This document shows positions 540 to 47,820 of a DNA stretch of 64,000 nucleotides, one piece after another. A model generated the notes under the pieces. The model was not told where the DNA came from. It saw nothing but the letters and a program-made list of their open reading frames with translations, and did not search any database. The stretch's first letter is position 1. The number at the start of each line of letters is the position of its first letter. Source of the DNA: Rothia terrae (GTDB lineage Bacteria > Actinomycetota > Actinomycetes > Actinomycetales > Micrococcaceae); contig NZ_JAAXPV010000005.1 in assembly GCF_012396615.1 (NCBI RefSeq), positions 1-64,000 of the forward strand. Reading direction: 5' to 3'. A program made the translations under genes and the position numbers.

Positions 540-2795
540 TCACGGCTTCCACCAGGTGAGGCGCAAGGAGTTGAGCACGACAAAGACCGAGCTGAATGCC
601 ATCGCCGCACCCGCAATCATGGGGTTAAGCAGGCCGAGCGCAGCAACCGGGATCGCCACTACATTGTAGATAAACGCCCAAAACAGGTTGGACTTAATCA
701 GGCGCAGGGTGGCGCGTGAAAGCTTCAGCGCTGTGGGCACGGATGCGAGTTCGCTGCGCATCAGCGTCATGTCGGCAGCTTCCATGGCAACATCGGTGCC
801 TGAACCCATCGCAATGCCGAGATCAGCCTGTGCCAGTGCCGCTGCGTCGTTCACGCCGTCGCCTACCATGGCAACGGTCTGACCGGCATTCTGCAGCTCA
901 CGAACCTTCGTGACCTTGTCCTCAGGGCTTACCTGCGCAAAAACATCGTTCTCATCAATGCCTACCTGCTGTGCTACCGCCTGAGCTACAGGTAGAGCGT
1001 CGCCTGTCAAAAGCACTGGGCGCAGACCTAGTGCCTTGAGCTCCGCAATGGACTGCGCAGAATCAGGCTTGGGGGCATCCTGCAAACAAATAATGCCCAC
1101 AGGTTTACCGTTGACTGCCACAGCCACGGTTGTAAAACCTTCGTGCTCCTTGGCAGAAATCAGTTCTCGCTGATAATCGTTGAGAAAAGCCCGATGCTCA
1201 TCCAAGAAGTCTGCCTTGCCCACAACAACGGTGCGCCCATCGGCGAGAACCGCGCGCACACCGCCACCTGCATAGGACTTGAAATCCTGCGACTCAGGGA
1301 GGGTGCCTCGCGCCGAACCAGCCGCCGCAATAGCGCGCGCAATCGGATGCTCACTGCGCTGCTCAACCGCAGCCGCGGGGGCAAGAACCTCAAGATAAGG
1401 ATCAGCATCAGAACTAAACGCCTCAACCTGTATGACCTCAACATCACCCGTGGTCACAGTGCCGGTTTTATCAAGAACGACGGTGTCAACACCGCGGGTA
1501 TCTTCAAGCACCTGCGCGCTTTTAATGAGGATGCCCAGCTGAGAACCGCGTCCTGTACCCGCCAACAAAGCGGTAGGAGTCGCCAGCCCCAAAGCGCACG
1601 GGCAGGCGATAATCAGCACCGAAACACCGGCAATAAACGCATCAGAAATATCGGGTGAAACCAGCAACCACACGACGAAAGTCAGCGCAGCAATCGCCAA
1701 AACGATAGGAACAAAAACAGAAGAAATACGGTCAGCCAAACGAGCGATAGGAGCCTTGGAGGACTGCGCCTCAGACACCAACTTACCCATCTGCGCCAGC
1801 GTCGTCTCACTACCTACGCGAGTGGCACGCACCGTGAGTGCGCCAGAAACGTTGACCGTCGCGCCCGTAACAGAACTACCCGGGCTCACCTCAACCGGAA
1901 CGGACTCACCGGTCAGAAGCGACTCATCAATCGCAGAACTACCCGAAAGCACCACGCCGTCCGTCGCAATTTTCTCGCCGGGACGAACCACAAACTCATC
2001 ATCGGGCAGAAGATCCTTCACCGGAATACGGATCTCTTTGCCGTTTTGAATCACGGCGACATCCTTAGCGCCCAAGTCAAGAAGCTTACGCAGAGCCTCA
2101 GATGAGCGTCGCTGCGTGCGCGCCTCAATAAAGCGTCCCACCAGCAAGAACAGTGCGACCATCGTTGAAGAATCAAAGTACAAATTATGGTCGTGAGCGC
2201 TCATGCCATCGTGACCGGCATGAGCCGTCACATACGGGTAAGCAATGAGGCTGACCAGCGAAAACCCGTACGACGCAATGATTCCCAAAGACACCAGGGT
2301 GTCCATCGTGCCCGATAAATGACGCGCATTAATCGCCGCCGAACGGTGAAAAGGCCACGACGCCCACGTCACCACCGGTAGCGCCAGTAGCGCCACCACC
2401 CAGCCCCAGTGCGGAAACTGAAACACTGAAAACATGGTGATGCAAAAAACCGGAACCGCAAAAATTACAGCCACCCAAATACGCTTCTTCAGCATCTCAG
2501 GAGAATGCAAAGACGTCGTATCAAGCTCAGGCGACGAATCTTCATCATGCTTAACTGACGCTGAGTACCCCGCCTTCTCAACGGCCTGCACAATCTGGTC
2601 ATCGCTGATGCTCGCCGGCGCAATCACGCGCGCCGACTCCAGCGGAAGGTTCACCGACGCGTCCACGCCCTCAAGCTTGCGCAGCTTGCGCTCCACACGC
2701 CCCACGCAGGACGCGCACGTCATGCCACCCACGTTCAGGTTAAGGACGCGGGTCTCAGGTTGTTGCAGGATGTCTTGGGGTGTCGTGCTCGACAT
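540..2795 (-). CDS. copA: Copper-translocating P1B-type ATPase
   Basis: A 751-residue P-type ATPase that exports Cu(I) across the membrane using ATP. An N-terminal HMA domain carries GMTCASC (C27, C30). The transmembrane metal site CPCALG lies near residue 397, the TGES actuator loop near 293, the phosphorylation motif DKTGT near 440, and the hinge [10 protein letters not shown] near 644. Eight hydrophobic segments are compatible with the P1B architecture. CPC plus the adjacent CopZ and CsoR indicate copper rather than zinc or cadmium. It is the last gene of a leftward csoR-copZ-copA group, 327 bases after copZ. That spacer contains its own hairpin, so copA may have an independent promoter. 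Confidence 0.95.
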
Positions 2796-44349: not shown

Positions 44350-44366
44350 CCTCTAGGCTCGAAAAC

Positions 44367-44426
44367 TTACTCCCAAAGTGTGTTTGTACTGACGCTAGTG
44401 TCAGTACGTTCGCACTTTGGGAGTAA
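44367..44426. repeat. Palindromic repeat family C, copy 1
   Basis: TTACTCCCAAAGTGTG..CGCACTTTGGGAGTAA with inner GTACTGAC/GTCAGTAC, ending in a T-tract. Sits after fprA. Same sequence at three further loci. Confidence 0.88.
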
Positions 44427-44480
44427 TTTTTTGCGCCGGACATGTTTATCCGCGCGGAAGTGCTCTGTCATACTACGCTT

Positions 44481-45206
44481 ATGATCTATAACAATTCCCA
44501 CCTCGCTGCGATTTACGACGCTGATAATCCTGACGGCGAAGATCATGATTTCTTTCGAGCAAAAGCTGAAGAGCTCACAGCCCTCCGCATCGTAGATTTA
44601 GGATGTGGAACCGGTCTTCTTACCACCACATTGGTTTCACCGGACCGCTCTGTAGTGGGGATTGACCCTGCGGACGCGATGCTTGATGTTGCACGCGCGT
44701 GTCCTGACGGTCAGCAGGTGGAATGGCTGCAGGGTACAGCAGAGCTTATCCAACCAGCATCAGTGGACTTAGCCATCATGAGTGGAAATGTCGCTATGCA
44801 TATTTTGAGCGATGAATGGCATAAGACGCTGGGACATATATCGAAGGGTCTGCTGAAGGGCGGCAACCTCATTTTTGAGTCTCGTAACCCTGACGCAGAG
44901 GCCTGGAAAAATTGGAGCCACCAGGTCACCCGGGAGACACCAATAGGCTTGCTTCAAGAATCGGAAGAAACGACCGAACCGGATGAGCACGGGATAGTCA
45001 CTATGAAGTGTCACTATAGGTTTCTTGAAGATAACTATGAACTTGATACGCAACAAAAGCTACAGTTTCGTTCCCATCAACAAATTGTTGAGGACCTTGA
45101 AGCTGTTGGGCTCGTCGTAACTGCATCCTATAAAAATTGGCATCGTGAGGATTTCACTGGCGGATTGGAGCAACCGCTTATGGTTTTCGCGGCAGAGAAA
45201 GAATAA
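44481..45206 (+). CDS. Class I SAM-dependent methyltransferase
   Basis: 241 residues from ATG at 44481; an upstream in-frame ATG (44442) adds a non-family segment. Motif I VDLGCGTGLLTTTL (about 39), motif II VVGIDPADAMLDVA (about 60) and motif IV-like VDLAIMSGNVAMHIL (about 95) mark a Methyltransf_25/11 domain. Substrate unknown. It ends five bases before a perfect palindromic terminator. Confidence 0.85.
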   Translation: MIYNNSHLAAIYDADNPDGEDHDFFRAKAEELTALRIVDLGCGTGLLTTTLVSPDRSVVGIDPADAMLDVARACPDGQQVEWLQGTAELIQPASVDLAIMSGNVAMHILSDEWHKTLGHISKGLLKGGNLIFESRNPDAEAWKNWSHQVTRETPIGLLQESEETTEPDEHGIVTMKCHYRFLEDNYELDTQQKLQFRSHQQIVEDLEAVGLVVTASYKNWHREDFTGGLEQPLMVFAAEKE

Positions 45207-45210
45207 AAGA

Positions 45211-45240
45211 TGCCCTCAATATGAATTCATATTGAGGGCA
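45211..45240. terminator. Perfect 30-bp palindrome after the methyltransferase gene
   Basis: TGCCCTCAATATGAA directly followed by its exact complement, with flanking A and T extending it by one pair. It follows the methyltransferase stop within five bases; TTGTTC follows. Confidence 0.8.
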
Positions 45241-45268
45241 TTGTTCTCACCAAAACATTCAAAGAGGT

Positions 45269-45300
45269 GGGGCGCAGACTGGGAGCCTGCGCCCCTTTCT
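45269..45300. terminator. Hairpin downstream of the 38-aa peptide gene
   Basis: GGGGCGCA (45269-45276) pairs with TGCGCCCC (45288-45295), followed rightward by TTTCT. It lies just past the stop of the small minus-strand peptide gene and could end that mRNA, or back up the methyltransferase terminator. Confidence 0.6.
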
Positions 45301-45304
45301 ATCT

Positions 45305-45421
45305 CTAATCGTCTTTCTTGAACCAGCTACGAATGGTGTCCGCAGAACCTACAAGGTTCTTGACAATCACCGATACTGAGACAAGAATCAGAGCTAGAGA
45401 TGTAATGTCGGTCCAAGACAT
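45305..45421 (-). CDS. 38-residue hydrophobic peptide, candidate type I toxin
   Basis: The ATG at 45421 is preceded by a very strong AAAGGAGG five bases away. The peptide has one membrane helix (TDITSLALILVSVSVIVKNLV) and a charged C-terminus, SWFKKDD, the layout of Fst/TxpA/holin-like type I toxins. On the opposite strand a TTGACA-17-AAGAAT promoter (45360-45388) and a terminator hairpin with T-tract (45449-45482) would make a short RNA antisense to the ribosome site. A minus-strand TACAAT (45488-45483) may drive the peptide mRNA. No family match is claimed; the toxin role is inferred from architecture. Confidence 0.6.
   Translation of the reverse strand: MSWTDITSLALILVSVSVIVKNLVGSADTIRSWFKKDD
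45360..45388 (+). promoter_or_regulatory. Candidate antisense RNA promoter
   Basis: Perfect -35 TTGACA (45360-45365), 17-base spacer, -10 AAGAAT (45383-45388, four of six consensus bases). It lies inside the small peptide gene on the opposite strand and points to the terminator at 45449-45482. Confidence 0.45.
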
Positions 45422-45482
45422 TACGCCTCCTTTATATATTTTTAGTGAGTGCGACCTCGGTTCGAGCTGGGGCCGCATTTTT
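45395..45482 (+). ncRNA. Candidate antisense RNA to the 38-aa peptide mRNA
   Basis: Predicted from the promoter above to a terminator: TGCG-A-CCTCG and its partner TGGGGCCGCA form a ten-pair stem with one mismatch and G-U pairs, closed by an eight-base loop, followed by TTTTTA. The about 88-nucleotide RNA would cover the start codon and AAAGGAGG of the peptide mRNA. No direct evidence of expression. Confidence 0.4.
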
Positions 45483-45514
45483 ATTGTATGACTCATTGCT
45501 GAACGCTGAGAAAC

Positions 45515-45574
45515 TTACTCCCAAAGTGTGTTTGCACTGACGCTAGTGTCAGTACGTTCGCACTTTGGGAGGAA
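45515..45574. repeat. Palindromic repeat family C, copy 2
   Basis: As C1, with GTTTGCACTGAC on one side and GGGAGGAA at the right end, followed by TTTTTT. It lies between the peptide locus and ktrB, both reading away from it, so it is not in a simple convergent setting. Confidence 0.88.
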
Positions 45575-45699
45575 TTTTTTTGCCCCGGACACGTTCACCC
45601 GGACGCGGCTCTCAGCTGACACTCAGACACGAAAATTTCTGCATCCGCAAAATCCGTGTTTTACGTGAAAACCGCGCGGGCAGCCCTAAGATATCTTCT

Positions 45700-47731: not shown

Positions 47732-47746
47732 GCCTGATCTAAAAAG

Positions 47747-47806
47747 TTACTCCCAAAGTGTGTTTGTACTGACTCTGGTGTCAGTACGTTCGCACTTTGG
47801 GAGTAA
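47747..47806. repeat. Palindromic repeat family C, copy 3
   Basis: As C1 with GACTCTGGTGTC in the centre and a TTTTTT tail; between convergent ktrA and the lactone-oxidase-type gene. Confidence 0.88.
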
Positions 47807-47820
47807 TTTTTTCCCCGGTC

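Follow-up and report, generated by a model that had tools for sequence, protein, structure and literature searches.

Does the 38-codon reading frame on the minus strand of this stretch of Rothia terrae DNA (64,000 nt, hereafter the window) encode the toxin of a type I toxin-antitoxin locus, as an earlier note made from the sequence alone had proposed? The elements on which that proposal was built are all present: the peptide gene, its strong ribosome site AAAGGAGG, a TACAAT box on the same strand and, on the opposite strand, a TTGACA-17-AAGAAT promoter and a T-tailed hairpin (Table 1). The antisense RNA covering the start region, put at about 88 nt, is predicted here at 88-91 nt in the window and at 87-91 nt in six copies of the locus. 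To these elements our analysis added a pairing stretch in the 3'UTR, a start-codon hairpin, a 3' G+C hairpin and an mRNA terminator. The same peptide is contained in a longer, 63-codon frame from 45496, and the 38-codon start was favoured because of its strong ribosome site and its homologues. The -35 element of the window mRNA promoter (TTCTCA, at 18 nt) is weak, and the -35 is not conserved among the copies. Our results make it probable that the proposal is right and that the locus represents a type I family observed, to date, in Rothia alone.

Table 1. Elements of the window locus, with positions in the window.
Feature	Position	Strand	Basis
Putative membrane toxin ORF, 38 codons, stop codon included	45305..45421	minus	ORF list, homologues, predicted single helix
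Ribosome site AAAGGAGG	45426..45433	minus	read in sequence
-10 box TACAAT, predicted mRNA promoter	45483..45488	minus	
Hairpin, predicted mRNA 5' end; also the antisense terminator when read on the plus strand together with TTTTT at 45478-45482	45450..45477	both	
Start-codon hairpin, 8 pairs, 7-nt loop at 45410-45416	45402..45424	minus	folding and covariation
Long-range stem, 5' side (ribosome-site region)	45426..45449	minus	folding
Long-range stem, 3' side (anti-ribosome-site stretch, 3'UTR)	45246..45267	minus	folding; shuffle test p 0.004
G+C hairpin in 3'UTR	45269..45295	minus	folding
Predicted mRNA terminator hairpin	45210..45241	minus	terminator scan, folding
Predicted mRNA, 281 nt	about 45482 to 45202	minus	ends predicted
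Antisense promoter TTGACA (45360-45365)-17-AAGAAT (45383-45388), inside codons	45360..45388	plus	
Predicted antisense RNA, about 88-91 nt	45395..45485	plus	ends are predictions
Segment between two 70-nt repeats, holding the methyltransferase gene and the peptide locus	44363..45580		

Taken alone, the antisense promoter of the window is no better than chance. An equally good one was obtained in 10.5% of synonymous recodings of the ORF (p 0.11), and a 2-kb stretch contained 4 promoter-like and 6 terminator-like sites, compared to 2.0 (sd 1.3) and 2.0 (sd 1.2), respectively, in shuffles. Note that the promoter matrix consisted of E. coli sigma-70 frequencies. It is in the family of copies that the design exceeds chance.

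The genome of the window belongs to the genus Rothia and has 2.48 Mb in 41 contigs. Searches with one sequence identified L002 (59% identical, E 1.1e-6) and L003 (49% identical, E 2.7e-5), together with a weak match, L006, in the window's own genome (E 1.03). A profile search of 35 Rothia genomes added L011, L013 and L018 at chance-level E values (0.37, 0.50 and 0.22, respectively). Despite such E values, L006, L011, L013 and L018 were accepted as members because they share the RNA layout; the strong E values that they obtained later, when already part of the query, are circular. The seven intact copies are distributed over five of the 35 genomes (the window and L006; L002; L003 and L018; L011; L013). 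Searching the genus with an RNA model revealed a divergent eighth copy, L095 (E 9e-5), in one of these five genomes (G011), and the decayed copy L076 (E 5e-8). Eight weaker matches of this search were read along with these two, and none is a member; L096 is the reverse strand of L095. Three further Rothia genomes carry decayed copies: in G002 and G029 the 3' half is gone, and one of them is also frameshifted, while in G007 the frame stops after six codons. The peptide frame is broken in all three decayed copies L025, L033 and L076, and the 5' hairpin persists. The statistics rest on six distinct copies (the window, L002, L003, L006, L018 and L011). L013, which occupies the same site as L011 and is near identical to it, and the decayed L025, L033 (on the contig of L068) and L076 were left out of all statistics. 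L095, found later and divergent, was left out of the six-copy statistics and included in the complementarity and seven-copy covariation tests, making seven distinct copies.

Outside Rothia, no member was found in the family and order genome samples searched. Profile A2, run on 395 family and 396 order genomes, gave weak matches only beyond the genus (best 0.0023), nearly all in frames of >130 residues; these matches include a 31-residue frame (G211, E 0.32) and a 95-residue frame (G145, E 0.44). Two weak matches that were read, L034 and L041, are not members. In L034 (G179, a different genus) a short hydrophobic frame with a charged tail (1501-1593, minus strand) is followed by a strong hairpin, in another RNA layout. 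The RNA model R1, at E 0.02, matched 9 of the 395 family genomes, 8 of them Rothia, and 2 of the 396 order genomes, both Rothia; these family- and order-wide searches used stricter filters than that of the genus. The match in the ninth genome, L097, is false: a gene ends there with a bidirectional terminator. A DNA pattern recovered 13 stretches from genome contigs, 7 from Rothia and 6 from other phyla, the latter likely due to chance as judged by their titles. The same approach on viral contigs gave six stretches: L051 and L053 are two R. nasimurium copies already known, and L050, L052, L054 and L055, near-identical to one another, are unrelated to the family. The window peptide had no match in annotated plasmids (E up to 1), nor had the L011 and L003 peptides in annotated phages (E up to 10).

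The seven distinct peptides have 37-39 residues, with a hydrophobic core and a charged tail, and their best 15-residue hydropathy ranges from 2.1 to 3.2 (2.69 in the window peptide). For the latter, a single helix is predicted over residues 3-37 (pLDDT 88.6 from single sequence). As modelled, the candidate peptides have the features of small hydrophobic toxins (<60 residues, one membrane helix). The window peptide matched no Pfam, PHROGs or NCBIfam entry at E 10, the other member peptides gave only chance-level matches to profiles (best 0.017), and among PDB sequences the best match of the window peptide (0.26) was a designed protein. The idea of a Corynebacterium porin-like peptide, which came from the helix and the size, was dropped when the genus turned out to be Rothia and the RNA layout appeared.

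The six distinct copies, with predicted transcripts of 267-281 nt, fold alike. A 5' hairpin, which on the other strand would also serve as antisense terminator, lies directly after the -10 box, and the ribosome-site region pairs with a stretch of the 3'UTR. This long-range stem encloses the start-codon hairpin, the coding region folded into a rod, and the G+C hairpin; the terminator lies outside, on the 3' side. In all six copies the start-codon hairpin, with its 7-nt loop, buries the start codon. L095 has the same fold, without a clear terminator. Across seven copies, 92.9% of the cells of the start hairpin are paired, and 14 cells are changed on both sides, compared to 5.0 in shuffles (0/500 reach this number). 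Its covariation score is 0.690, compared to 0.177 when shuffled (0/500), and all slid controls are <=0.238; the number of pairs with a double change, 5, was matched by 51/500 shuffles. Note that these values come from a hand alignment on the loop, which favours that structure and was made because the MAFFT alignments (A3, A4) misplace some hairpin arms.

The complementarity between the ribosome-site region and the own 3'UTR exceeds that of shuffles in five of the six copies (Fisher 3e-8; p 0.004 in the window, 0.002 in L002, L003 and L011, and 0.012 in L018), as it does in L095 (p 0.008). L006, the paralogue in the window's genome, failed this test (p 0.39), and for all copies except L006 the own 3'UTR was the best partner among the six. 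The energy needed to open the ribosome site is 6.8-19.1 kcal/mol for the full-length mRNA, 0.1-3.4 kcal/mol without the 3' stretch and 5.6-11.0 kcal/mol for a nascent RNA that ends 45 nt into the ORF. In every form folded, including the trimmed ones, the start codon is paired, and translation may thus require more than trimming. Codon choice lowers the folding energy: in each of the six copies the native value is reached by 0-1.0% of 400 recodings. According to these models, the primary transcript would have its ribosome site shut, a feature of type I systems, with L006 as the weaker case.

On the other strand, the best sigma-70-like site of the ORF is found at the same place in 6/6 copies, with a 17-nt spacer, 30 or 33 nt from the start codon. 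Compared to synonymous recodings, the six p values are 0.105, 0.024, 0.055, 0.126, 0.110 and 0.019, two of them <0.05 singly. Combined, they give a Fisher value of 6e-4 assuming independent copies, which, being related, are not fully independent; the sense-strand control gave 0.99. In all six copies the predicted antisense RNA forms two hairpins, with 4-5 T after the second, and the unpaired link between them is complementary to the ribosome site. For the window copy and L006, the duplex of each copy's own two RNAs is predicted at -169 to -174 kcal/mol, and the cross duplex between the two copies at -51 to -53 kcal/mol. The antisense promoter and terminator are kept in 6/7 distinct copies. The exception, L095, has a weak promoter at the same place (5.4 bits, TTGATG-17-GAGACT) and no T-tail on the antisense strand, and keeps the peptide and the 5'-3' pairing. 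L095 is the kind of homologue that the earlier note had named as refuting its proposal; it is one of the seven distinct copies, and the anatomy of the other six supports the type I reading.

In the window, the neighbours of the locus are an fprA-like oxidoreductase, a methyltransferase, trkH and trkA. The methyltransferase gene, of class I (44442-45206), and the peptide locus are both placed between fprA and trkH. Two 70-nt repeats (44363-44432 and 45511-45580), 97% identical, flank this pair of genes and suggest that the segment was gained. fprA adjoins trkH in two relatives (L099, L100), with neither a methyltransferase match nor the peptide gene; in a third (L101) fprA is outside the locus. 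The arrangement suggests that the window copy was inserted, as both L099 and L100 lack it. The repeat itself, near-palindromic and ending in TTTTTT, occurs three times in the window (the third at 47743-47812) and at 12 sites genome-wide (24 matches strand by strand); it may be a bidirectional terminator present in several copies, or else a small mobile repeat. A gene close to L095 has a match to the N-terminal part of the type I restriction R subunit, and most of the intact loci are chromosomal, outside recognised mobile elements.

L003 and L018 reside in prophages, with a lysis set (amidase, holin, XhlA-like) on one side and a tyrosine integrase on the other; note that the XhlA match of L003 is below Pfam's cut-off. 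Beyond the integrase of the L018 prophage, ARAGORN calls a 96-nt tRNA-Ala (agc; L061, 7259-7354), possibly part of the attachment site or a chance call. The position of these two copies beside holin, XhlA-like and amidase genes would fit another explanation, in which the mRNA fold is real, the peptide is harmless or regulatory (for example, a prophage lysis helper) and RNA-gated, and the antisense RNA is absent or incidental. The modest antisense promoter scores of single copies, and the preservation of the fold in L095 without a good antisense promoter, point in the same direction. However, no lysis genes are present in 5/7 distinct copies (3-kb loci read), the antisense promoter and T-tail persist in six of the seven, and the sealing of the ribosome site by the 3' end is described in PMC6733600 as a hallmark of type I toxin mRNAs. 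We consider this explanation unlikely.

A different possibility is that the antisense promoter is a by-product of the constraints imposed by the protein and the RNA fold, control being exerted by mRNA folding alone. Recodings do favour that place, and in 3/6 copies the chance of an equal score is nearly the same for a site anywhere as for a site there (0.05-0.13). Against this stand the Fisher value, the lack of correlation between antisense promoter score and folding energy among recodings (-0.13 to 0.06), and the 4-5 T that follow the antisense hairpin in 6/6 copies, which the mRNA does not need; we give it a slim chance. Finally, a chance small ORF between two terminators, a reading that could draw on the within-chance promoter of the window and on the strong terminators abounding there, deserves practically no credence, since it is already refuted by the start-hairpin covariation, and homologues with compensating changes exist in other genomes (E 1e-6 and 3e-5).

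The type I toxin-antitoxin locus is the explanation that we favour. The peptide, the promoters, the hairpins, the conserved pairing and the mobile settings come directly from the sequences and the folding computation; from them we infer the transcripts, the 3' trimming, the toxicity, the membrane target and the addiction, as follows. An mRNA of about 281 nt would encode the 38-residue single-helix membrane peptide. In its full-length form, pairing of the ribosome-site region with the 3'UTR in the long-range stem would shut the ribosome site, and trimming of the 3' end would open it. An antisense RNA of ~90 nt would start inside the codons, end at the mRNA 5' hairpin and bind the start region of the trimmed, active mRNA. 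Should the element be lost, the antisense supply would stop and the peptide would be freed, which would make the locus an addiction module of prophages or other inserted DNA. The fold shared by six copies, the start-hairpin covariation, the 5'-3' complementarity, the opening energies, the codon choice, the constant place of the antisense promoter, the predicted two-hairpin antisense RNA with its T-tail, the two copies between lysis genes and integrase and the decayed copies with a broken frame count for this explanation. The L095 exception, the failure of L006, the start codon paired in all folded forms, the modest single antisense p values from related copies, the unconserved -35 and the mostly chromosomal loci count against it.

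According to PMC12390103, a paper of 2025, type I systems had previously been described in Proteobacteria, Firmicutes and Tenericutes only; one cyanobacterium has been added since, and the paper blames search methods relying on known toxins. By this account the earlier note, which put the type I systems of actinobacteria at 'few', was if anything too generous; in the open-licence literature, we found no report of such systems in actinobacteria or in Rothia. The mechanism is of a known type, and the host phylum and the peptide are new as far as literature searches reach. With some reserve, we lean towards a wider view: an Actinomycetota type I family, carried in Rothia prophages and insertions, would have reached the AapA/IsoA design independently, with one hairpin serving as mRNA 5' end and antisense terminator, and with codons that carry the peptide, the fold and the antisense promoter. 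The Rothia family, found via its RNA layout, supports the view that searches with known toxins miss systems. The locus provides a concrete actinobacterial case to test, and the RNA model can be used for further searches. If our interpretation is true, unrelated phyla have this way of sealing an mRNA in common.

How does the Rothia locus compare to the known systems? It shares a short helix with a charged tail with the Fst/Ldr superfamily; unlike in that superfamily, the PXXXG motif, described in PMC8309996, is absent from the seven distinct Rothia peptides (read by eye), which also lack a family match. BsrG/SR4 and YonT/SR6 of B. subtilis resemble it in the 38-residue membrane peptide (BsrG) and the prophage setting (PMC8309996 and PMC5848175). 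In these and other B. subtilis prophage systems, however, the antisense RNA overlaps the 3' end, whereas that of Rothia overlaps the 5' end. With hok/Sok it has in common the inert full-length mRNA, the 5'-3' pairing and an early metastable hairpin (PMC6733600), but the Rothia peptide has no Pfam match and the antisense overlap covers the toxin's own start region. From AapA/IsoA of H. pylori, the locus differs in its actinobacterial host and in a peptide of no known family, and the likeness is drawn from anatomy. As portrayed in PMC6733600, AapA/IsoA relies on a long-distance 5'-3' interaction, metastable hairpins and activation by 3' truncation, and has a stable 5' stem-loop and an 80-nt antisense RNA with the -10 box inside codons. 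Compared with that description, the Rothia locus likewise has a peptide of about 30-40 residues, a stable 5' stem-loop in the mRNA, and several copies per genome along with decayed ones. Its antisense RNA, predicted at 87-91 nt over the 5' part (about 80 nt in AapA/IsoA), also has its -10 inside codons, and, as computed in Rothia, its ribosome site would be shut by the 5'-3' interaction in the full-length mRNA and by a local hairpin in the nascent one.
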